Shown here piece after piece: positions 2 to 14,837 of a stretch of DNA of 15,229 nt. The translations under genes and the position numbers were made by a program. Positions within the stretch are counted from its first letter, which is position 1; every line of letters begins with the position of its first letter. The notes beneath the pieces were generated by a model, which saw nothing but the letters and a program-made list of their open reading frames with translations, searched no databases and was not told the DNA's origin. Source of the stretch: Flavobacterium sp. (lineage in GTDB: Bacteria > Bacteroidota > Bacteroidia > Flavobacteriales > Flavobacteriaceae); the NCBI GenBank assembly GCA_030682755.1, contig JAUXNR010000267.1, forward strand, positions 1 to 15,229, given 5' to 3'.

Positions 2-766
2 GGACAAGAGCTGTTTGTGGTAACTGATCCGGCAAGTAATGTTCCTGCAAATTCGCTCGCCATTAATGTGATGCAATCTCTTTTCAAAGAAGAATTTAAA
101 TCCGGTTACAATTACCATTTTATGCCTGAAGTGACGTACGGTTTTAATAAAGATTTAATGTTTCGAGGTTCAGCTTTTATTAGTAATAGAAGTAATCAAT
201 TGGTTACTGAAGGAGGAAGTTTTATGGCAAAATACCGCTTTTATTCTACAGATGATTTAAACAGTCATTTTAGAATGGCTGCCTATGGTAGGTATAGCTT
301 TAACAACGCAGACATTCACCAAGAACAAATAGACATACTAGGTCACAATACTGGTTTTGAAGCAGGAATTATAGCAACCAAATTGATAAAAAAAGTAGCC
401 ATTAGTTCATCATTAAGTTTTGAGAAAGCATTAGACAACAAACCTAGCTATCCCTTTCCAGACAACCTTGGTGACAATGCTACAAATTATACGCTGTCAT
501 TTGGTAAGTTGATGTACCCTAAAACGTACACCAGTTTTAAACAAACCAACATTAATCTAATGGTTGAATTTGTCGGACAAACTATTAATGAAAATGGTAA
601 ATCCTATTTAGATGTAGTTCCGGCTGTACAATTTATTTTCAATAGTCAAGCTCGTTTAGATTTCGCCTATCGTCATGAATTAATGAGTTCTATGATACGT
701 TCAGCTCCAAATGGATTTTATTTCAACCTCTATTATACTTTTTTCGATTTAAAGAGTAAAAAATAA
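2..766 (+). CDS. Outer-membrane beta-barrel protein, 5'-truncated by window edge
   Basis: The reading frame is open to the left edge (Gly-Gln-Glu-Leu-Phe precede the first possible GTG at 17), so this is the C-terminal part of a longer protein. The visible ~254 residues alternate polar and hydrophobic/aromatic residues in short strands separated by Asn/Asp/Gly-rich turns, and the tail (FYFNLYYTFF, then a few Lys) resembles the closing strand of an outer-membrane barrel. There are no helical membrane segments and no metal motif. A start such as ELFVVTDPASN is familiar to me from uncharacterised Bacteroidota outer-membrane proteins beside copper genes, but I cannot name the family. The stop is 16 bp before the DUF3347 lipoprotein gene, so the two are probably cotranscribed. 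A role in metal passage across the outer membrane is inferred from context only. Confidence 0.7.
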   Translation, partial: GQELFVVTDPASNVPANSLAINVMQSLFKEEFKSGYNYHFMPEVTYGFNKDLMFRGSAFISNRSNQLVTEGGSFMAKYRFYSTDDLNSHFRMAAYGRYSFNNADIHQEQIDILGHNTGFEAGIIATKLIKKVAISSSLSFEKALDNKPSYPFPDNLGDNATNYTLSFGKLMYPKTYTSFKQTNINLMVEFVGQTINENGKSYLDVVPAVQFIFNSQARLDFAYRHELMSSMIRSAPNGFYFNLYYTFFDLKSKK

Positions 767-782
767 TTTTAAAAACATACAC

Positions 783-1517
783 ATGAAAACACTTTTTTTA
801 ACTGCCTTTTTAGCAATCACTTTAGTTTCTTGTAATCATAAAACTAAAGAAACACACAATAATACTTCAGTTAATTCAAACGAGATATTTGCATGTCCAA
901 TGCACCCGGAAGTTACTGGAAAAAAAGGAGAAGACTGCTCAAAATGTGGTATGGAATTAACTGAACCGGTTGCTCTAAAAGAAGCTACATACAATGACAA
1001 TGATGAAGCTCACGAACATAAAGATACAGCAACAACACAAGCAACTAAAGTTAAGGAAAACACACAAATTTCTCAAACAGCTAATTCTTTTTCGACTTCC
1101 GAAATCATTAGTGATTATTTAAAACTTAAAAATGCTTTAACAGAGGATGATACCAAAAATGCTGCAACATTTGCCAAGCTATTGTTTAAGACATTAAATA
1201 GTACGGATATTTCTTCCGTGGACATCAAATTAAGAAAAAATCTTCAAGATATTATTCAAGATGCTAAAGAACACACAAAACATATTGGTGATAATTCAGA
1301 TAAAATTAACTACCAAAGGGAACATTTTGTATCACTAAGCAAAGACATAAATGATTTAGCAAAACAGTTTGGGAGTAAACAAAAATTATATCAAGATTTT
1401 TGTCCAATGGCAAATGAAGGCAAAGGGGCTATTTGGATTAGTGAAACAAAAGAAATAAGAAACCCATATTATGGTTCTGAAATGTTAAGCTGTGGCTCAA
1501 TTAAAACAACCTTTTAA
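783..1517 (+). CDS. DUF3347 lipoprotein with N-terminal heavy-metal-binding module
   Basis: A 244-residue exported lipoprotein: a hydrophobic leader ends in a lipobox (LVSC, Cys17), so it should be anchored in the periplasm or outer membrane. Residues 35-62 form a small metal-binding module with C38-P-M-H-P and C52-x-x-C55-G-M57, the pattern seen at the start of many CusB/CopA-type proteins and in stand-alone copper-binding lipoproteins. From about residue 105 onward it matches DUF3347. The C-terminus has the characteristic DFCPMANEGKGAIW segment with C207-P-M209 and a closing M234-L-S-C237-G, which may form a second metal site. In Bacteroidota this domain is often found with, or fused to, CusB-type adaptors. 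A periplasmic copper-buffering or delivery role is inferred. It lies 16 bp after the barrel gene and 2 bp before the regulator gene. Confidence 0.88.
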   Translation: MKTLFLTAFLAITLVSCNHKTKETHNNTSVNSNEIFACPMHPEVTGKKGEDCSKCGMELTEPVALKEATYNDNDEAHEHKDTATTQATKVKENTQISQTANSFSTSEIISDYLKLKNALTEDDTKNAATFAKLLFKTLNSTDISSVDIKLRKNLQDIIQDAKEHTKHIGDNSDKINYQREHFVSLSKDINDLAKQFGSKQKLYQDFCPMANEGKGAIWISETKEIRNPYYGSEMLSCGSIKTTF

Positions 1518-2080: not shown

Positions 2081-2087
2081 ATTGTGT

Positions 2088-2119
2088 AAATCATAACCAT
2101 AATTCTACAAATCATAACC
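2088..2119 (+). promoter_or_regulatory. Tandem 11-bp direct repeats, candidate AraC-type operator of copA
   Basis: AAATCATAACC occurs exactly at 2088-2098 and again at 2109-2119, so the start-to-start spacing is 21 bp, about two helical turns, placing both copies on the same DNA face. A T three bases upstream is also shared. The second copy runs into an 8-bp palindrome, AACCGGTT (2116-2123). AraC-family proteins typically contact two direct half-sites about 21 bp apart. The gene just upstream encodes such a protein and the gene just downstream is copA. A loose -7-like AATTTG ends at 2139, which would put the second repeat over the -33 region as expected for a class II activator site. The repeats are seen directly; the binding is inferred. 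Confidence 0.6.
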
Positions 2120-2158
2120 GGTTTTTCAATAGAAATTTGCATTATAAATCAGATAAAG

Positions 2159-4576
2159 ATGAAAACAGAGAAAACACATTTGTATGCAATACCATTAGAA
2201 AATGTTGAAAGTGAGCATTGTGCTATGATTGTTGATAAAGGATTACAATCAGTTAAAGGGATTGCTAGTCACAAAGTAGAATTAAATAACAAACAAGCAA
2301 TAATCGAATCCGAAAAACCGGAAATAGCGATCCCAGATGCTGTTAAAGCCATTCGTGACTTGGGTTATGATGTTTCAACAACAACCCAAACAATACCTGT
2401 ACTTCAAATGACTTGTGCTTCTTGTGCAGTAAGCGTGGAAAGTGTAATTCAATTTTTACCGGGTGTTGTAGCTGCTTCCGTTAATTATGCATCAGCAGAA
2501 GTTAAAGTTGAATATATTCCAAGTTTGGTTTCATTAAACAAAATGCGTGAAGCCGTTCAAAGTATTGGTTACGATTTATTCTTAAATCAAAGTGATGTCA
2601 ATCAGGAAACCTTAGAAGATATTCACACTAGAAAACAAAAACAGTTAAAAATTAGAACTTTTGGTGCAATAATACTTTCTGTACCTCTAGTTGCAATTGC
2701 TATGTTTTTTATGAATATTCCCTATGCTAATTATATCATGTGGGTTTTAGCAACACCTGTAATTATTGGTTTTGGTAAAGATTTTTTCATAAATGCGTGG
2801 AAACAATTAAAGCATCGTTCAGCAAATATGGACACTTTAGTAGCGTTGAGTACAGGAGTGGCTTACATTTTTAGTGTGTTCAATACGCTTTTTCCAAATT
2901 ACTGGCATTCAAAAGGATTACATGCACACGTTTATTTTGAAGCAGCAGCAGTAGTCATTGCCTTCATTCTTTTAGGAAAACTACTGGAAGAAAATGCAAA
3001 AGGAAATACTTCTTCAGCAATTAAAAAATTAATTGGGTTACAACCTAAAACCGTCACGGTAATCAATCAAGAGAATATCCAAACGCAATTACCAATCGAA
3101 CAAGTTACGGTAGGAATGACAATTTTAGTAAAACCCGGTGAAAAAGTAGCTGTAGATGGTATAGTGGTTCAAGGAAGTTCTTTTGTTGATGAAAGTATGC
3201 TAAGTGGTGAACCCATTCCTGTAAAAAAGGAAGCGAATGATAAAGTGTTTTCTGGAACCATTAATCAAAAAAGTAGTTTCCAATTTAAAGCTGAAAAAGT
3301 AGGTACTGATACGATGCTTTCCCAAATCATAAAAATGGTTCAAGATGCTCAAGGTAGTAAAGCACCAGTTCAAAAAATGGTAGATAAGATTGCTAGTATT
3401 TTTGTTCCAATCGTTATTGGAATTGCAGTTTTATCCCTAATAGTATGGATAATTTTTGGAGGACAAGATGGATTCACCCAAGGATTATTAGCCTTAGTAA
3501 CTGTTTTGGTTATTGCATGTCCGTGTGCATTAGGTTTAGCTACTCCAACCGCAATTATGGTAGGTGTTGGAAAAGGTGCAGAACAAGGAATTTTAATTAA
3601 AGATGCCGAAAGTTTAGAATTAGCAAAGAAAATCGACACAATTATTTTAGATAAAACAGGAACTATTACAAAAGGAAAACCTGCTGTAACCAATGTTGTT
3701 TGGACTGAGGAAACAGAAATTTTAAAAAAGATCTTGTTAACCATTGAAAAACAATCGGAACATCCACTAGCTGAAGCGGTTGTCCATTTTTATAAAGATG
3801 TAAATACAGTTGCAATCCATCACATCGAAAGTATTACAGGTAAAGGAGTTAAAGCAGATTTTAATGGTCAAAATTATTTTATTGGTAACCAAAAACTACT
3901 TTTAGAAAACAATATATCCATAGATAAAAATCTGGAACAAAATGCGTCAGAATGGTTAGCAGAAGCCAAAACTGTAATTTGGTTTGCTGATGATAAAAAA
4001 GCATTATCGGTTATAGCGATTGCAGACGAAATCAAGGAAACATCGATTGAAGCAGTCAAGGAATTGCAAAAGATGAATATTGAGGTGTATATGCTTACTG
4101 GTGACAATAATAATACTGCTAAAGCTGTGGCTGAAAAAGTGGGAATTACAAATTTCAAAGGAGACGTTTTACCAAAAGATAAAGCTGATTTTGTAAAAGA
4201 ATTACAAGCTAAAGGGAAAACTGTAGCAATGGTGGGCGATGGTATAAATGACAGTACCGCTTTAGCACAAGCCGATGTAAGTATTGCAATGGGTAAAGGA
4301 AGTGATATTGCCATTGATGTGGCAAAAATGACGATAATTTCTTCCGATCTTACTAAAATCCCAATAGCCATAAAGCTGTCAACTAAAACGGTAAATACCA
4401 TCAAGCAAAATCTATTTTGGGCTTTTATCTACAATATTATCGGAATTCCAATTGCAGCAGGAATTCTATATCCAATAAATGGGTTTTTACTTAATCCGAT
4501 GATTGCAGGAGCGGCAATGGCTTTAAGTAGTGTGAGTGTGGTTGCAAATAGTTTGCGACTGAAATATTATAACTAA
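2159..4576 (+). CDS. copA: Cu(I)-exporting P1B-type ATPase
   Basis: An 805-residue inner-membrane pump that uses ATP to expel Cu(I) from the cytosol. In order: a degenerate first HMA-like domain (about 8-73) whose CxxC is reduced to E19-H20-C21; a normal HMA domain with C86-A-S-C89; membrane helices from about 165; the actuator loop S349-G-E-P352 (Ser replaces the usual Thr); the helix 6 metal site C454-P-C456; the phosphorylated Asp in D498-KTGT; the P1B hallmark H535-P536; and the hinge G693-DGIND. The last two helices carry YN...P (FIYNIIGIP) and M..SS (MALSSVSVVANS), the pattern of the copper/silver P1B-1 group. All catalytic residues are present and length is normal for two N-terminal domains. 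It is preceded by the putative operator and followed after 16 bp by an HMA chaperone, its likely Cu donor. Confidence 0.97.
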   Translation: MKTEKTHLYAIPLENVESEHCAMIVDKGLQSVKGIASHKVELNNKQAIIESEKPEIAIPDAVKAIRDLGYDVSTTTQTIPVLQMTCASCAVSVESVIQFLPGVVAASVNYASAEVKVEYIPSLVSLNKMREAVQSIGYDLFLNQSDVNQETLEDIHTRKQKQLKIRTFGAIILSVPLVAIAMFFMNIPYANYIMWVLATPVIIGFGKDFFINAWKQLKHRSANMDTLVALSTGVAYIFSVFNTLFPNYWHSKGLHAHVYFEAAAVVIAFILLGKLLEENAKGNTSSAIKKLIGLQPKTVTVINQENIQTQLPIEQVTVGMTILVKPGEKVAVDGIVVQGSSFVDESMLSGEPIPVKKEANDKVFSGTINQKSSFQFKAEKVGTDTMLSQIIKMVQDAQGSKAPVQKMVDKIASIFVPIVIGIAVLSLIVWIIFGGQDGFTQGLLALVTVLVIACPCALGLATPTAIMVGVGKGAEQGILIKDAESLELAKKIDTIILDKTGTITKGKPAVTNVVWTEETEILKKILLTIEKQSEHPLAEAVVHFYKDVNTVAIHHIESITGKGVKADFNGQNYFIGNQKLLLENNISIDKNLEQNASEWLAEAKTVIWFADDKKALSVIAIADEIKETSIEAVKELQKMNIEVYMLTGDNNNTAKAVAEKVGITNFKGDVLPKDKADFVKELQAKGKTVAMVGDGINDSTALAQADVSIAMGKGSDIAIDVAKMTIISSDLTKIPIAIKLSTKTVNTIKQNLFWAFIYNIIGIPIAAGILYPINGFLLNPMIAGAAMALSSVSVVANSLRLKYYN

Positions 4577-4592
4577 TTTAAAAATAGAACAA

Positions 4593-4817
4593 ATGGAAAA
4601 TAACACCTTAAAATTCAAAACAAATATCAATTGTATGGGTTGTGTGTCCAAAGTGACACCGGAATTAGATAAACTTTCAGCTATTGAAAATTGGGAAGTT
4701 GACATCAGAAATAAAGATAAAGTTTTGACTGTGGAAGCATCTTCAGACAAACAAGACGAAATAATCTCAGCAGTTGAAAAAGCAGGGTTTAAAATCGAAA
4801 AAATAAATTCTTACTAA
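4593..4817 (+). CDS. Small cytosolic HMA copper chaperone
   Basis: A 74-residue protein without signal peptide, consisting of a single HMA (ferredoxin-like beta-alpha-beta-beta-alpha-beta) domain. The metal site is C14-M-G-C17 in the first loop. It follows IN rather than the common M(T/D) of CopZ/Atx1, so the conserved Met two residues before the first Cys is absent. The C-terminal half (AVEKAGFKIEKI) is the usual last helix and strand. It begins 16 bp after copA, so it is very likely in the same transcript and should hand Cu(I) to the ATPase N-terminal domains. The family and metal-binding class are clear. Copper as the metal is inferred from context, and I give no symbol because copZ-type naming would need comparison. 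Confidence 0.92.
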   Translation: MENNTLKFKTNINCMGCVSKVTPELDKLSAIENWEVDIRNKDKVLTVEASSDKQDEIISAVEKAGFKIEKINSY

Positions 4818-7199: not shown

Positions 7200-7556
7200 A
7201 TGAAAACATTCACACTTAAGACTTTCTTTTTTCTCGCATTTACTCTTTTTACAATTCATACAGCATCTGCACAGAAAACAAATCAAAAAGCAATAATCAA
7301 AACGGTATTACACTGTAATCATTGCAAAGCATGTGAAACCTGTGGTATGAAATTTAAAACCGAAATGCTGAAAATAAAAGGTGTAAGAGCTTATGAATTA
7401 GATGATGAAAATATGACTTTCACAATCTTTTACAATGAAAAGAAAACAGATTTGCAAACGATTAAAGTAGCCATCTCTAAATTAGGTTATGATGCAGATG
7501 AAGTAAAAGCAGATCCTGAAGCTTATGAAAGTTTAGACGATTGTTGTAAAGCATAA
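7200..7556 (+). CDS. Secreted Cys-rich HMA-like metal-binding protein
   Basis: A 118-residue exported protein. The leader (hydrophobic 9-24, then SAQ) probably ends at Ala24 or Gln25. The mature part has an HMA-type fold: strand KAIIKTVL, then the metal loop, helix, KIKGVRAYELDDENMTFTIFY, helix, and ISKLGYDADEV. The loop is unusual, having four evenly spaced cysteines, C39-x-x-C42-x-x-C45-x-x-C48, preceded by His38, where ordinary HMA domains have one CxxC. The C-terminus adds C115-C116. It could bind more than one metal ion or use disulfides in the periplasm. I recall this architecture from unnamed Bacteroidota proteins. It lies 42 bp after the oxidase gene with its own promoter candidate and 5 bp before the methyltransferase gene. 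A periplasmic scavenger or MerP-like role is inferred. Confidence 0.85.
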   Translation: MKTFTLKTFFFLAFTLFTIHTASAQKTNQKAIIKTVLHCNHCKACETCGMKFKTEMLKIKGVRAYELDDENMTFTIFYNEKKTDLQTIKVAISKLGYDADEVKADPEAYESLDDCCKA

Positions 7557-8266: not shown

Positions 8267-9445
8267 CTATAATTTATACTTCAATAAAGTAGCTACAACA
8301 TCATAATACTCTTTTTCAATCTCCAAATAGGAATTATAAGTAGTGTTGTAATAATTAAGTTCTACAAAATATTCTAAAACCGAAATTTGACCAGCAGCTA
8401 AGGCTTTATCCAATAATTTTATTGGTTCAACCGATTGGTTTATTTTTTCATAGTCAGTTAAAATACTTTTCAAACTTTCATAACGTCCATAAAGCTGTTT
8501 TATTTCGTAATAATGGTCATTAGTATGATCTGTCAAAGCACTTTCTGCAAACGTCATTTTAGCTTTTTGAAGCTTAACCGTGTTTTTGCTTTCCCAAAGT
8601 GGTAATGATATTCCGGTGTGAATTCCGTTATACGTTTGCCCTAAAATACCTTGATAATGATACCCAAGTTCCATTTTGGGTAATGCTAATGCTTTGCTTA
8701 CATCAATTTGTTTTTGAGCAATTACTTTTTCTTGCTCTAGCGTTTTTCTGATGTAATCTTGGGCTTCAATCTCCTTTTCCAATATTTCAAAATTTGAAAT
8801 AGCAGGAACATCAAAATATACAACATCAACAAGATTAATTGAAGTTCCACCATTTAAACTCGTTAGCTTTTCATTCAGTTTTACAATTTCAGAAGCGTTA
8901 TCTTGAAACTGTTTTTTGATTTCTAACAACTGAATTTCAGCTTTGTTTACATCCAGAATAGTGCCATCTCCATTATCCAATTTCTTCTTGAAATTGGTTA
9001 ACCACTTTTCAGTAGCTTCTTTTCTTTTAGTCAACGGAACTTGTAATTTATTTCGGTAAACCAATTCAATACAAATCTTTTTAGCTTCCAAAAGCAATTC
9101 TTGATTAGCTGATTTCAATTGCAAATCGGCTTGAGTGCTTAATTGTTTAGCTAACTCATTTTTCTTTCCATAAACTGTTGGAAAATCAAAAGACTGCGTC
9201 ACAATAATATCCGTTTGATTACCAGCATTGGCAGGACTTCCTTTTAAATAATCATATTCAACAGTTGGATTGTATAATGAATTTCCTGTTTTGTACTGCA
9301 CTTTTTGAGCATTCCAATACTGCGTATTCGCTTGTATGGTTTTGTTGTTTTTAGCAATTTCTGAAAGGACTTTATCAATAGTTGATTGAGAATGTCCAAA
9401 ACCAAAAGTCATTGTTGCTAAAATAAGAAATAGTCTATTTTTCAT
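8267..9445 (-). CDS. czcC: CzcC-like outer-membrane efflux channel (TolC/OEP family)
   Basis: The third component of a CBA heavy-metal efflux system, the outer-membrane duct joined to the RND pump and adaptor. I start it at the ATG at 9445 (392 residues) because this gives a clean leader, MKNRLFLILATMTFGFGHSQ. An upstream ATG at 9490 would add 15 residues, including a mid-gene piece of the pump frame, and bury the signal. The body is long amphipathic helices rich in Lys, Glu, Gln and Asn (for example around KAEIQLLEIKKQFQDNASEIVKLNEKL) typical of OEP proteins, with barrel-like short strands (PTVEYDYLKGSP; MELGYHYQGILGQTYNGIHTGISLPLW). It overlaps the pump gene by 11 bases, which implies translational coupling and a fixed stoichiometry. 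Metal specificity is not encoded here. The czc name follows the pump. Confidence 0.9.
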   Translation of the reverse strand: MKNRLFLILATMTFGFGHSQSTIDKVLSEIAKNNKTIQANTQYWNAQKVQYKTGNSLYNPTVEYDYLKGSPANAGNQTDIIVTQSFDFPTVYGKKNELAKQLSTQADLQLKSANQELLLEAKKICIELVYRNKLQVPLTKRKEATEKWLTNFKKKLDNGDGTILDVNKAEIQLLEIKKQFQDNASEIVKLNEKLTSLNGGTSINLVDVVYFDVPAISNFEILEKEIEAQDYIRKTLEQEKVIAQKQIDVSKALALPKMELGYHYQGILGQTYNGIHTGISLPLWESKNTVKLQKAKMTFAESALTDHTNDHYYEIKQLYGRYESLKSILTDYEKINQSVEPIKLLDKALAAGQISVLEYFVELNYYNTTYNSYLEIEKEYYDVVATLLKYKL

Positions 9446-12400
9446 TGGTAACTTTTTTTCGATTAGATAAATAATACACCACAGGAACAATAAAAATGTT
9501 CAATAAGGTTGAAGTCAATAAACCACCCAAAATAACTTTTGCCATCGGACTTTGTATTTCATTTCCAGGCAAATCACTTGCAATAGCCAACGGAATTAAT
9601 GCCAATCCTGCGGTTAAGGCAGTCATTAAAATGGGACTTAATCTATCTTTTGAACCTTGAATGACGGTTTCATAAAGCGATAATCCTTCTTTTTCTAACG
9701 TTTCATAATGTGAAACTAATAGAATTCCATTTCGAGTAGCTACACCAAACAGCGTAATAAAACCTATAATAGCAGGAATACTCAAAATACCGCTAGTGAA
9801 GTAAATACTAAATACACCACCAATTAAAGCAAGAGGTAGATTTAGCAATATGATAGAAGCAGTTTTTACTTTTTTAAACTCTTGATACAAGATTAAGAAA
9901 ATAACTAATAACGAAATAAGTGAAGTTAGAATTAATGTTTTTGAGGCTTCAGCTTCGGCTTCAAATTGTCCACCATATTCGATATGATATTCTTCAGGTA
10001 ATTTTACTTCTTCATCAATGATTTTCTGAATATCAGCCACAACACTTTTTTGGTCACGCCCAGAAACGTTAGCAGATACAACGGTTTTACGTTGTACATT
10101 TTCTCTATTGATGGTATTTGGTCCCGATGTGCTTACAATATCTGCTACATAATACAATGGTATTTTTTTGCCATCGTGAGTGTCAATCATCGCATTTTTG
10201 ATGTTCTCGATTTTACCTTTATTAGCATCATCAAATCGAAGCATCAAATCAAAGGTTTTGTTACCTTCATAAATTTCAGATACTTTTTCACCTGCAAAGG
10301 CAACATCAACAAATTCATTAAACTGACCAATGGTAATTCCGTATTGGTTTAACACATCACGTTTGGCTTTAATTTGAATTTGTGGAATTTCAACTTGTTG
10401 TTCCACACTCAAATCAACCAATCCTTCAACATTCTGAATTTTAGCTTTTATTTCATTGGAAAGAGTAATGAGTTTATTCAAATCATTACCAAAAATTTTG
10501 ATAGCAATATTTGCTCTAGTTCCTGATAACATATGGTCAATTCGATGTCCAATAGGTTGTCCAATAGTAATATTTGCTCCCGAAACTCCTGCTAATTTTT
10601 CACGAACATCAGCCATAAAATCCTCACGACTTCTTTCATCAAGTGTAAAAGGAGCATCAATTTCAGCAGCGTTTACACCTTGTGCATGTTCATCGAGTTC
10701 AGCTCTTCCGGTTCTTCGAGTGGTGATTTTAATTTCAGGCACAGAAAGCAATGCTTTTTCTACTTGTGTGCCAATTTTATTACTTTCCTCTAATGATATT
10801 CCGGGTAAACTCACAGCACTAATTACTAATGAGCCTTCGTTAAATTCAGGTAAAAAACTTCTTCCCAATTGGCTCATTACAAACAAAGAAATCAAAAACA
10901 AGCAACCCGCAACAATCAATACTGCTTTTTTCATTTCCATAACTTTGTTCAAAGCATTGGAATATACTTTTTGCAAGCGTTGTACCAACCAACTTTCTTT
11001 ATGCTGTTGTAGAAGCATTTTATCATTAGTTAGTAAGTAACTTGCCAATACAGGCGTTAGTGTAATAGAAACGATTAACGATGCAAACAACGCCACTATA
11101 AAAGCAATTCCAAGTGGAGCTAATAATTTGCCTTCCATTCCTGATAAAAAGAACAACGGTAAAAAGGCAACGATGATAATAAAGGTTGCATTTATTACAG
11201 AACTTCTAATTTCAAATGAACCATCAAATATTACGGTCAATTTGTCTTTTTGTTCTGCTTTTGGTTTGAGTGCATTTTCTTTCAGTCGTTTAAAAACATT
11301 TTCCACATCAATAATGGCATCATCAACCAAATCACCAATAGCAATTGCCATGCCTCCTAAGCTCATAGTATTGATAGTAAAACCAAGATATTTTAAAGTT
11401 AGTATGGCGACAATCAATGAAATAGGAATAGCCAATAAAGATATAAATGTAGCTCTCCAATTCATCAAGAATAAAAACAGGATGATAATGACAAAAGCAG
11501 TTCCTTCCAGTAAAGTCTTTTGAATATTACTGATGGATGCATTAATAAAATCAGCTTGACGAAAGATTTTAGTATTAATATGTACATCTTTTGGCAAGTT
11601 CTTTTGAATGTCGGCAATCGAAGCATCAATAGTTTCAGTAAGTTCTAAAGTGTTGGTTGATGGTTGTTTCATAACTGTCATAATAACCGCAGGTTCACCT
11701 TTTAACGAACCATCACCAATTTTAAGTGAAGATCCAATTTTAATTTCAGCTACATCTTCAATTTTTATCGTATTTCCATTAACTGTTTTGATAACTGATT
11801 TACCAATTTCTTTAATATCAGATGTTCTACCAATACCTTTAACAATATATTCGTTATTGTATTCATTCATAAAACCACCAGACGAATTCCCATTGGCTTC
11901 TTCACTTGCTTTTAGCAATTCAGTCAATGAAACGTTATAATAGTTCATCTTTTGAGGAGAAGCTAATATCTGATATTGCTTATATTCCCCACCAATCACA
12001 ATTACTTGTGAAACACCACCAGTGGCTAATAATCTTGGTCTGATAGTCCAATCGGCAATGGTTCTCAAATCAATTTGAGACGTTTTATCTGCTGTAACAC
12101 TGATCAACATAATTTCTCCCATTATAGAAGATTGTGGACCCATGGTAGGATTTCCAACTCCTTGTGGTAATTTTTCAGCTACAGCAGTTATTTTTTCATT
12201 TACAATTTGTCTTGCCTTGTAAATATCAGTGTCCCATTCAAATTCAACCCATACAATAGAAATTCCTGCTGAGGAAGAAGAACGAACGCGTCTTACATTA
12301 GTAGCACCATTAACTGAAGTTTCAATAGGAAATGTAACCAATTTTTCTACTTCTTCAGGAGCCATACCATGAGCTTCAGTAAGCACAACAACCGTTGGAG

Positions 12401-12530
12401 CAGTCAAATCAGGAAATACATCTACTTCCATTTTTGAAGCAACTACGCTACCAAAAATCAGCAGTAAAACCGATGCTATCACTACAAAAAATCGATTGTG
12501 TAGTGAAAATTTAATTATTTTATTTAGCAT
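9435..12530 (-). CDS. czcA: CzcA/CusA-family heavy-metal efflux RND pump
   Basis: A 1031-residue inner-membrane proton-driven pump of the HME-RND family, full length. It begins with the first helix followed by EVDVFPDLTAPTVVV and the porter-domain segment HGMAPEEVEKLVTFPIE, both family signatures. Helix 4 reads G399-D400-L-V-D403-D404-A-I-I-D408-V-E410-N411. D403 corresponds to the proton-relay Asp of CusA. The second half repeats the layout (LGRSFLPEFNEGSLV; GHRIDHMLSGTRANIAIKIFG) and ends with paired helix blocks. Positions of the CusA methionines (recalled as M573 and M672) are S571 and H666 here, arguing against Cu(I)/Ag(I) and for divalent cations such as Zn, Co, Cd or Ni, or an unassigned metal. 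The gene follows the adaptor by 10 bases and overlaps the channel gene by 11. The symbol denotes family, not proven substrate. Confidence 0.95.
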   Translation of the reverse strand: MLNKIIKFSLHNRFFVVIASVLLLIFGSVVASKMEVDVFPDLTAPTVVVLTEAHGMAPEEVEKLVTFPIETSVNGATNVRRVRSSSSAGISIVWVEFEWDTDIYKARQIVNEKITAVAEKLPQGVGNPTMGPQSSIMGEIMLISVTADKTSQIDLRTIADWTIRPRLLATGGVSQVIVIGGEYKQYQILASPQKMNYYNVSLTELLKASEEANGNSSGGFMNEYNNEYIVKGIGRTSDIKEIGKSVIKTVNGNTIKIEDVAEIKIGSSLKIGDGSLKGEPAVIMTVMKQPSTNTLELTETIDASIADIQKNLPKDVHINTKIFRQADFINASISNIQKTLLEGTAFVIIILFLFLMNWRATFISLLAIPISLIVAILTLKYLGFTINTMSLGGMAIAIGDLVDDAIIDVENVFKRLKENALKPKAEQKDKLTVIFDGSFEIRSSVINATFIIIVAFLPLFFLSGMEGKLLAPLGIAFIVALFASLIVSITLTPVLASYLLTNDKMLLQQHKESWLVQRLQKVYSNALNKVMEMKKAVLIVAGCLFLISLFVMSQLGRSFLPEFNEGSLVISAVSLPGISLEESNKIGTQVEKALLSVPEIKITTRRTGRAELDEHAQGVNAAEIDAPFTLDERSREDFMADVREKLAGVSGANITIGQPIGHRIDHMLSGTRANIAIKIFGNDLNKLITLSNEIKAKIQNVEGLVDLSVEQQVEIPQIQIKAKRDVLNQYGITIGQFNEFVDVAFAGEKVSEIYEGNKTFDLMLRFDDANKGKIENIKNAMIDTHDGKKIPLYYVADIVSTSGPNTINRENVQRKTVVSANVSGRDQKSVVADIQKIIDEEVKLPEEYHIEYGGQFEAEAEASKTLILTSLISLLVIFLILYQEFKKVKTASIILLNLPLALIGGVFSIYFTSGILSIPAIIGFITLFGVATRNGILLVSHYETLEKEGLSLYETVIQGSKDRLSPILMTALTAGLALIPLAIASDLPGNEIQSPMAKVILGGLLTSTLLNIFIVPVVYYLSNRKKVTNEK

Positions 12531-12540
12531 AAGTTAGGTT

Positions 12541-14037
12541 TTAATGTTCGTGTCCGTGAGCAGGCAAAGCACCTGATGCACTGGATAATTTGATTTGATA
12601 ACCACCTTTGGTAACCACTCTTTCGTTTTCAACGATTCCTGATAGAACTTGAACATTTAAACCATCACTTGCACCTAGTTTTACTTCTCTTTTTTGAAAG
12701 CTTTCGCCACCAGTTTGCACATATACATAAAAAATTCCTTGTTCTTCAATTAAAGCTGAAACAGGAACTACTAAAGCATCAGCAATAGTGGAAGATTTAA
12801 GATAGATTTCAATAATCGAACCTGAAACCAATTGACCTTCATTATCAATTTCAAAAGTCACCGGAATAAAGGGAGTGGATGCTGAAGCACTTTTACCATA
12901 AGAAACAATTCTACCATTTAAAGCCGTTGTATTGTAAACCACATCACTTTGAGGTGTTTTAAAATTAGCCGATGTAATGCTTGATAATCTACTAAAGTAG
13001 TTTTGCGAAATATTGGCTTGAACTAACAATTTTTTGTTCTTTGAAATAGTGGCTAACGGTGTTCCTGATGCAACAAATTGTCCTTCGGTAACCAAAATAT
13101 TTTTAACAAAACCTGACATTGGAGCTAATACATTCTGACCTTTACCACTATAATTTTTAGAAATGGTGTTGTAGGCAGTTTGTGCATTTTCAAATTGTAA
13201 CTTAACTTGTTGGTGCTCTCTTTCTGAAACGATTTTATCAGCAACTAATGCTTTAGAACGTTCATAATCGGCTTTAGCTTTTAAATAATTGGCTTTAGCA
13301 TCTTTTACAGAAGCATCAATATTGCTTTCCGTCATATCACCACCCGTAATGGTAAAAAGTGAATTCCCAGAATTTACAGCTGAACCCACAATGGTGTTTT
13401 TACCAGAAAAAACAACTACACCGCTGGCTTTAGCAGTAACAATCATTTCGTCTCCAGGAGCAGAGAGAATTTGACCACTGGTTTTAATGACATCATTGAA
13501 AGTATCTTTTTTAACCGCTTGGTTGGCAAATTCCACTTTCCAAGCTTGTTCTTTCAGATAGGAAATATCGCCACTTTCAGTGTGCTCAGGTTGTTTGGCT
13601 AATGCGGTTTTCATATCAGCATAAACCACTACATCTTCAATGGTAATTTTATCTGTAAAATCTTTGGTAATGATGTCAAAAATTAATGTTCCTATTCCTG
13701 TTGTCTTCGGATTTAATGCCAAACGAAATATACCGGGTGAACTGGGAGCATCAACAGAATTTTTAATGCCTTTATCGCCAACAATCAAGCTAACAGTTAT
13801 TTTAGCATCAGTCAAAGCTGTAAAGTTTTCTCCTAAAACGGTGAAGTGAGCTGCAAACTTTGAAGTTTCACCAACTATCAAAGGTTTAAACTCAACAAAT
13901 AGTTCTGAATTTTCAGTATAAAGTGTGTAAGCTAGAGGTTCTAAATGAGCTTCGTGTTTAGCTTCCTCTTTGTTGTTGCAACTTGTAAATCCTATTAAGA
14001 ATAAACTAAGTAGCAGTGTTTTTTTTATTATTTTCAT
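12541..14037 (-). CDS. czcB: CzcB-like periplasmic adaptor lipoprotein
   Basis: A 498-residue membrane-fusion (adaptor) protein linking the RND pump to the outer-membrane channel. It has a lipoprotein leader ending in FTSC (Cys20). Residues ~35-150 form an extra beta-sandwich-like domain (ENSELFVEFKPLIVGETSKF...) found in some CusB/CzcB-type adaptors. From ~190 comes the adaptor core: the half-lipoyl segment around ILSAPGDEM (M198), a coiled-coil hairpin ~238-298 (KDAKANYLKAKADYERSKAL), the second half-lipoyl VLAPMSGFVKNILVTEGQFV, then the beta-barrel and membrane-proximal domains. The last residues carry H494-G-H496-E-H498 and a H-E-A-H cluster lies near the N-terminus (28-31), both potential metal contacts. 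It is 10 bases ahead of the pump gene and 57 bases behind the small His-rich lipoprotein gene, separated from it by a hairpin. Confidence 0.93.
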   Translation of the reverse strand: MKIIKKTLLLSLFLIGFTSCNNKEEAKHEAHLEPLAYTLYTENSELFVEFKPLIVGETSKFAAHFTVLGENFTALTDAKITVSLIVGDKGIKNSVDAPSSPGIFRLALNPKTTGIGTLIFDIITKDFTDKITIEDVVVYADMKTALAKQPEHTESGDISYLKEQAWKVEFANQAVKKDTFNDVIKTSGQILSAPGDEMIVTAKASGVVVFSGKNTIVGSAVNSGNSLFTITGGDMTESNIDASVKDAKANYLKAKADYERSKALVADKIVSEREHQQVKLQFENAQTAYNTISKNYSGKGQNVLAPMSGFVKNILVTEGQFVASGTPLATISKNKKLLVQANISQNYFSRLSSITSANFKTPQSDVVYNTTALNGRIVSYGKSASASTPFIPVTFEIDNEGQLVSGSIIEIYLKSSTIADALVVPVSALIEEQGIFYVYVQTGGESFQKREVKLGASDGLNVQVLSGIVENERVVTKGGYQIKLSSASGALPAHGHEH

Positions 14038-14432: not shown

Positions 14433-14837
14433 TTAGCTAAAAAGTGTGGGCGGACCACGAAAATGTAAGGAATGTAAATGTGGAGAAATAAAAATGAGCG
14501 GTTCTTTATTTCTAACCACTTCTTTTTTATTGTAAAAAGTAAGTGAGAGACTATAAATAGAATGATTGTCAAAAACCAATAAATCATTCGGTACTTTCTT
14601 GACTATTTTACTAACTTCTTCACTATGAGTAGTTGAAAAGGTATCTGAAGAATGAGAAAAATGAGAAAAAAAATGCGACAAACCATTTTCATTAGAATGA
14701 TCTTCATCATCGTGATGATGATGTGAGTTTCCATGATGATGATGTTCCGTTTCATGGGTATGCGGAATCAAGCTGTGTCCTAATTGTAGAAAACAAGCCA
14801 AAAAAAGAAAATAAATACAGATTTGCTTTTTTATCAT
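14433..14837 (-). CDS. His-rich secreted protein, uncharacterised
   Basis: A 134-residue protein whose first ~22 residues form a hydrophobic leader (KKQICIYFLFLACFLQLGHS). Cys15 is not in a good lipobox. The next region holds 20 His overall, concentrated as HxH and two HHHH runs with Asp/Glu (26-47), followed by SHFFSHFSHSS. The remainder (80-134) is an ordered-looking segment ending PHLHSLHFRGPPTLFS. I recall a short C-terminal RGPP in unnamed Bacteroidota proteins near CzcCBA genes but know no function. It is the first gene of the leftward cluster. A metal-binding periplasmic role, buffering or sensing, is inferred from composition and position. A TAnnTTTG-like box lies 5 bases before the ATG, so a near-leaderless transcript is possible. 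Confidence 0.75.
   Translation of the reverse strand: MIKKQICIYFLFLACFLQLGHSLIPHTHETEHHHHGNSHHHHDDEDHSNENGLSHFFSHFSHSSDTFSTTHSEEVSKIVKKVPNDLLVFDNHSIYSLSLTFYNKKEVVRNKEPLIFISPHLHSLHFRGPPTLFS

Follow-up and report, generated by a model that had tools for sequence, protein, structure and literature searches.

The AraC operator of Escherichia coli consists of two direct half-sites, araI1 and araI2, which are spaced 21 bp apart with the second located next to the -35 element. AraC-family proteins with sites next to the -35 or -33 element are mostly activators. The operator of CueR is an inverted repeat within the promoter spacer.

The DNA described here is a whole contig (C543, 15,229 bp, referred to as the window) of a 3.69-Mb Flavobacterium assembly of 950 contigs, which is 96% complete with 6% contamination. 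It carries a gene for an AraC-type protein directly upstream of copA, and an earlier note had pointed to a pair of direct repeats between the two. The locus resembles the AraC/XylS activators, as exemplified by AraC on araI1-araI2, in the double-HTH domain of the regulator and in a pair of direct half-sites spaced by 21 bp, of which the second lies by the -35/-33 region. It differs in that an HMA metallochaperone-like sensor is found where AraC has its arabinose-binding cupin domain, in that the operator comes directly after the regulator's stop codon whereas that of AraC lies in a divergent promoter, and in its Bacteroidota -7 box.

With CueR-copA (MerR family) the locus shares the likely cytosolic copper activation of the copA operon, but the regulator belongs to a different protein family, and the direct repeat is located upstream of the promoter core, not inverted within the spacer. 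CsoR-copA is similar in that a copper regulator gene lies beside copA, and different in that the regulator of the window is predicted to bind DNA by HTH motifs. The earlier note had proposed a switch using neither CueR nor CsoR. This is consistent with the 96% complete assembly (6% contamination), where no match to PF02583 (CsoR) was found and the best match to TIGR02044 (CueR) reached 29.1 bits against a cut-off of 147.4. With the chaperones CopZ, Atx1 and GolB the regulator appears to share the ferredoxin-like order of strands and helices with a CxxC, going by a structure model and its weak fold matches; it differs from them in being fused to a DNA-binding domain and in falling below the Pfam cut-off for HMA.

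Four families of Cu(I)-sensing regulators, MerR, CsoR, CopY and ArsR, are named in PMC3817396, and the terms AraC and Bacteroidetes gave no match in the main text of that article. A description of an HMA-AraC copper regulator was not found among the titles and abstract beginnings of the openly licensed literature. The parts are of known kinds, while their combination and their wide use in the phylum appear to be undescribed in the searchable literature. Judged from its sequence, the system would join an AraC-family regulator and an AraC-type operator to a metallochaperone-like sensor.

The regulator and its copper gene neighbourhood

Table 1. Features of the window, with positions counted from its first base
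Feature	Position	Strand	Basis
HMBD + DUF3347 gene (by eye lipoprotein-like), 2 bp ahead of the regulator gene	783..1517	+	ORF and domain matches
HMA-AraC regulator gene, 186 aa	1520..2080	+	ORF; HMA-like N-terminus C10-x-x-C13, helix 65-82, C-terminal AraC-type double HTH
Whole operator-promoter element matched by model R1	2081..2146	+	34.8 bits, E=3e-10 in the window; training without the window
First half-site core TGTAA (TRYAA)	2085..2089	+	Conserved column block
First exact AAATCATAACC copy	2088..2098	+	Exact match
Central block CCATAATT (CCAWAATT)	2097..2104	+	Information content of columns 15-21
Core TACAA (TRYAA) of the second half-site, offset 21 bp from that of the first	2106..2110	+	Conserved columns; spacing peak at 21 bp
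Second exact AAATCATAACC copy	2109..2119	+	Exact match; extension beyond the TACAA core mostly unconserved
Putative -7 box GAAATTTG, 21 nt after the second half-site	2132..2139	+	TAnnTTTG type with G for the first T
copA, copper-translocating P-type ATPase, 805 aa, predicted target	2159..4576	+	TIGR01511, 629 bits (cut-off 397)
HMA protein, 74 aa, CopZ-like	4593..4817	+	PF00403, 36.9 bits (cut-off 24.8)
Multicopper oxidase, 759 aa	4878..7157	+	Three Cu-oxidase domains
HMA protein, 118 aa, signal-like N-terminus (by eye)	7200..7556	+	PF00403, 27.1 bits (cut-off 24.8)

Domain matches and coordinates agree with the gene arrangement given in the earlier note, namely an HMA-like protein with an AraC-type HTH, a CopA ATPase, and a gap of 78 bp between the regulator's stop (2080) and the copA ATG (2159). 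In the regulator, HTH_18 scores 56.5 bits, above the curated cut-off of 33.6, and HMA (PF00403) scores 23.6 bits, just under the Pfam cut-off of 24.8. An AlphaFold2 model built from a 71-sequence alignment (mean pLDDT 88.4) places a beta-alpha-beta-beta-alpha-beta domain before the long helix (65-82) and the double HTH. The top Foldseek matches of this model are AraC-family DNA-binding domains, with E-values starting at 2.5e-5. A two-HTH fold like that of the AraC/MarA DNA-binding domains is supported by the model and by its matches to 6swi, 3lsg and 2k9s (E<=3e-4) and to 1bl0 (E 3.6e-3). Weak matches to the 60-70-residue chaperones TTHA1718, GolB, CopZ and Atx1 (E 0.02-0.1) would, from fold and length, align to the N-terminal part. 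According to the model, the regulator is a CopZ-like ferredoxin-type fold with a CxxC, joined to an AraC DNA-binding fold. The HTH_18 score and the two-HTH fold point to an AraC/XylS-type protein, for which sequence-specific DNA binding is predicted.

The regulator gene and the gene in front of it are likely cotranscribed, and because the window is an entire contig, transcription of the regulator gene may begin beyond its edge. An RND-type efflux operon with OEP, ACR_tran and HlyD/CusB-like domains (8267-14037, minus strand) faces the copA operon. No strong match to the operator model described below precedes this efflux operon; the next best match in the window scores 8.6 bits.

The repeat pair

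The 11-mer AAATCATAACC occurs in two exact copies offset by 21 bp, as first noted, and an exact search of all 15,229 bp of the window gave no third copy, again in agreement with the earlier note. The exact pair (gap 5-15) is found once in the 3.69-Mb assembly. When the sequence of the 78-bp gap was dinucleotide-shuffled 20,000 times, an exact 11-mer direct repeat arose in 38 cases, and for the whole window two exact 11-mer pairs at offsets of 11-60 were observed against 0.67 expected from 30 shuffles. The second of these pairs (at least 11 identical bases), at 14713-14745 and also offset by 21 bp, lies in a TGA-repeat tract within low-complexity His-rich coding sequence. The exact 11-mer alone is weak evidence, since it is only mildly unlikely by chance.

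What makes the repeat convincing is its conservation across relatives, not the exact 11-mer match. Copies 1 and 2 are identical at 11/11 positions in the window alone, at 9/11 in L033/L035 and at 3-6/11 in the seven other close relatives listed. Of the nine positions in the extension of copy 2, compared with shuffled partners across 29 non-redundant sites, two stood clearly higher (0.48 vs 0.34, 0.62 vs 0.36) and a third slightly so (0.38 vs 0.25). The ATCATAACC part of the second copy is largely window-specific and most of the extension lineage-specific; the exact ATCATAACC extension may be due to chance. The exact 11-mer was therefore rejected as a functional unit, the extension of copy 2 being mostly not kept in relatives. 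The repeat unit of the earlier note has to be replaced by a half-site shifted by a few bases, TRYAA, together with a CCAWAATT block, and this conserved core is, on the comparison of loci, strong evidence.

The conserved operator-promoter element

The DNA 3' of the regulator's stop codon is strikingly conserved among the relatives listed. Comparison of the loci defined the conserved unit as TRYAA-N16-TRYAA with the CCAWAATT block, located 21-22 nt before a -7 box of the TAnnTTTG type; the first half-site and the CCAWAATT block stand out as its conserved parts. A weight matrix seeded and refined on the relatives' loci has the consensus TCTTRCAAATCATTCCCAWAATTNTRCAA. It scored at least 14 bits in 87 of 109 loci (the two window copies not counted), loci of the same set having been used for refinement, and 24.3 bits in the window, which had been excluded from it. 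A/G covariation between the half-sites is weak (same base in 20/29, p=0.05), too weak to be taken as proof of a common reader.

In 84 of 89 sites, a total that includes both copies of the window, an NAnnTTTG-type box follows the second TRYAA at a distance of 21 or 22 nt. The flavobacterial -7 consensus is given as TAnnTTTG, at -12 to -5 (PMC9723704). At the observed distance the second half-site would therefore end at about -34, adjoining the -33 element, and relative to the putative -7 box the promoter-proximal half-site is predicted to abut the -35/-33 region. A TTG near -33 is present in one of 29 aligned promoters and absent from the window, and the first letter of the -7 box departs from TAnnTTTG in 27 of 29 (counted by eye), which suggests that the promoter is weak without help. 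Scans for sigma-70 promoters and terminators gave nothing above shuffles; the sigma-70 promoter type does not fit the phylum Bacteroidota.

Conservation across loci and genomes

A family-level search found relatives of the regulator in 75 of 149 genomes at E<=1e-20, and 30 loci, followed by a further 60, were taken from the matches listed. A second set consisted of the best 80 of 430 relatives and so favours window-like orthologues. A promoter model was built from sequence only, on 29 promoters with the window excluded. In the window's own genome its sole strong match was at 2085-2146 (E=1.2e-7; next 0.014). A wide regulon in this genome, reached via the operator motif, was rejected on account of this single strong site.

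In the best 80 of 430 relatives, the model matched downstream of the regulator in 77 loci, 19 of which were in the training set; among loci outside the training set the count was 58/61. Conservation of the pair in related genomes, for which the earlier note had called, is thus found as a two-turn repeat with its promoter spacing behind 77 of these 80 close-regulator loci, and the lack of conservation that would have refuted the earlier proposal was not seen. At the model threshold the site is missing from L099, L104 and L107, of which L104 has no copper neighbour within 1.4 kb and L107 was outside the neighbour test described below.

Strong sites also followed the regulator across 60 related genomes. 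At E<=5e-6 a match was found in 18/39 genomes with the regulator and 0/21 without it; the corresponding numbers were 21/39 and 2/21 at E<=1e-4, and 34/39 and 6/21 at E<=0.01. This search used stricter filters, by which weak matches are lost. Furthermore, the weight matrix reached at least 14 bits in 39 of 107 regions within 300 bp downstream of a regulator, many of which had helped to train it, against 0.07 in shuffled sequence and one on the reverse strand. In a phylum-wide sample, 28 further loci, scored apart and outside the other counts, were divided into 15 at 14 bits or more and 13 below. Relatives of the regulator (E<=1e-25, paralogues included) were present in 116 of 247 sampled Bacteroidota genomes, about half.

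Half-site spacing was examined in 107 non-redundant regulators from 171 loci, several paralogues per genome being kept. In 35 of them, the window included, the 250 bp behind the gene contain TRYAA-N16-TRYAA followed by a -7 box 20-23 nt further on, and this 21-bp peak bears out the AraC-like, two-turn spacing of direct half-sites proposed earlier. The full layout at other spacings (9-37 bp) occurs 0-2 times each, except for 13 regulators at 30 bp; this second peak was discarded, as it consists of the same sites counted from a TATAA or TGTAA formed by the last codons and the stop. When the -7 box was not required, the repeat was counted in 45 regulators at a spacing of 21 bp, in 20 at 9 bp, in 18 at 30 bp and in no more than eight at any other; the peak at 9 bp looks to be this by-product again. 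Seventy-two of the 107 lack the strict layout in the 250 bp searched, and many distant paralogues have weak or altered sites. In L015, L018, L023 and L160 the half-sites are of the TGTAA type with the 21-bp spacing kept, and in L183, L203 and L212 (L195 by eye) the first half-site overlaps the regulator's stop codon.

The site can also stand apart from the regulator. In L138, L141 and L146 it stands before a copA-like gene, and no regulator gene lies closer than 1.5 kb; one is located 4.2 kb upstream in the genome of L138 and on other contigs in those of L141 and L146. The site is thus tied to the target gene as well as to the regulator gene's 3' end. In view of these three loci, the earlier note's description of the copper switch as self-contained is too strong.

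Related promoters were seen elsewhere in the loci. A site-like promoter (at about locus position 1501) precedes an ArsP_1/HMA permease gene beside an HMA-AraC gene in L139, L140 and L145, suggesting that this branch controls another efflux system. A weaker TACAA-N16-TACAA promoter, found on the minus strand at L094:2950-3014 and in similar matches in 28 other Flavobacterium loci, precedes an MFS transporter gene (the next ORF in seven loci; MFS_1 in L094), and may serve as operator for a further AraC-type regulator. Upstream of the regulator gene in L102, a weak match on the plus strand (4135-4199, E 0.025) precedes a gene for a cysteine-rich 101-aa protein with no Pfam match, possibly a copper-storage-like protein under the same control.

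The link to copper

The CxxC is kept in 88 of the 107 regulators, including that of the window. A copper/HMA neighbour, defined as a match within 1.4 kb to any of twelve copper/HMA-type query proteins, was found for 81 of these 88 and for 0/19 of those without CxxC. Mapped onto a tree built from the HTH part, loss of CxxC takes two changes, with as few as one being forced. With only one or two losses on the tree, the Fisher p=1e-15 for CxxC against copper neighbours is discounted, and the comparison is best read as one or two natural experiments rather than 107 independent observations. From the CxxC and the copper neighbours, the regulator is predicted to be a cytosolic Cu(I) sensor.

Fourteen of the 107 regulators (L015, L017-L023, L025, L026, L028, L029, L160 and L161) have SxxC for CxxC. 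None of the tested copper neighbours was found at these 14 loci, and some of them carry a TGTAA-N16-TGTAA site at the same promoter spacing. The genome of the window encodes a second HMA-AraC protein (C268:3866-4408, L156), in which both cysteines of the CxxC are gone. A response-regulator gene (PF00072, 60.9 bits) lies behind that of this second protein, which on the HTH tree groups with the CxxC-less paralogues L197, L199, L209 and L210.

Proposed mechanism and alternative explanations

The comparisons above link a conserved operator-promoter geometry to the regulator family and to copper genes. We predict, with a probability of roughly two in three, that the element is the copA operator-promoter, bound by a Cu(I)-responsive AraC-type activator encoded just upstream. 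Two regulator monomers would sit on the two direct half-sites on one face of the DNA, the second half-site abutting the -33 region much as araI2 of AraC does at -35. Activation would occur by contact at -33, with RNA polymerase being recruited to a promoter that has no TTG there and an off-consensus -7 box. The signal would be Cu(I), or a similar soft metal, on the CxxC of the HMA-like domain, perhaps delivered by a CopZ-like chaperone. Metal binding would then rearrange the HMA and HTH parts and switch on copA and the small HMA gene, probably with the multicopper oxidase gene. In L097 a second strong operator match (254-319, plus strand, 34.9 bits) is located 1.1 kb upstream of the regulator; it may lie before the regulator's own operon and serve autoregulation.

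The main rivals of the Cu(I)-activator reading are repression and a different soft metal. If the sign were opposite, the apo-regulator on the half-sites would block -33 and repress copA, and copper would release it. Cytosolic copper repressors of the CsoR, CopY and ArsR types act in this direction (PMC3817396). The position of the second half-site, abutting -33 in 84 of 89 sites, would likewise fit blocking. We nevertheless consider repression unlikely: the TTG near -33 in 1/29 and the deviating first letter of the -7 box in 27/29 suggest a promoter that is weak unaided, and AraC-family proteins that bind there are for the most part activators. About equally unlikely is a sensor for some other metal, thiophilic or divalent (Ag, Zn, Cd, Hg or Au), instead of or besides Cu(I). 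A CxxC by itself leaves the identity of the metal unfixed, and the regulators of L139, L140 and L145 adjoin the ArsP_1/HMA permease and not copA, but most of the neighbouring genes encode CopA-type ATPases, multicopper oxidases or HMBD/DUF3347-type proteins.

It seems to us improbable that some other protein, for instance a two-component response regulator or a second AraC protein, reads the site and that gene order alone puts it behind the HMA-AraC gene. The sites in L138, L141 and L146 that have no regulator within 1.5 kb would fit such a reader, as would the related 21-bp TACAA repeat before the MFS gene in Flavobacterium loci. Against it, strong sites track the presence of the regulator across the 60 genomes, and paralogues whose half-sites have different letters (TGTAA in L015, L018, L023 and L160) are again followed by the 21-bp layout. 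A chance repeat in A+T-rich intergenic DNA, for which the 0.67 exact pairs expected window-wide in shuffles would speak, is refuted for the conserved core by the conservation results, leaving it a negligible chance.

Implications

Returning to the Cu(I)-responsive activator, we lean, on balance, towards a wider reading in which HMA-AraC proteins form a further class of cytosolic copper sensors besides MerR, CsoR, CopY and ArsR, and the main copA regulator in much of Bacteroidota. A copper-chaperone domain on an AraC DNA-binding domain would read TRYAA-N16-TRYAA. With the operator often at the 3' end of the regulator gene, overlapping the stop codon in some distant paralogues, switch and site could move as a cassette, and Cys-less paralogues may have taken on targets unrelated to metals, some of them retaining the 21-bp geometry. 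Copper sensing in Bacteroidota would in that case lie outside the four sensor families named in the main text of PMC3817396. The question is directly testable, given a defined protein, operator and target promoter and relatives in about half of the sampled Bacteroidota genomes. Furthermore, the parts would make a compact list for copper reporters in Bacteroidota, and the regulator suggests a route from chaperone domain to sensor by fusion to an AraC DNA-binding domain.
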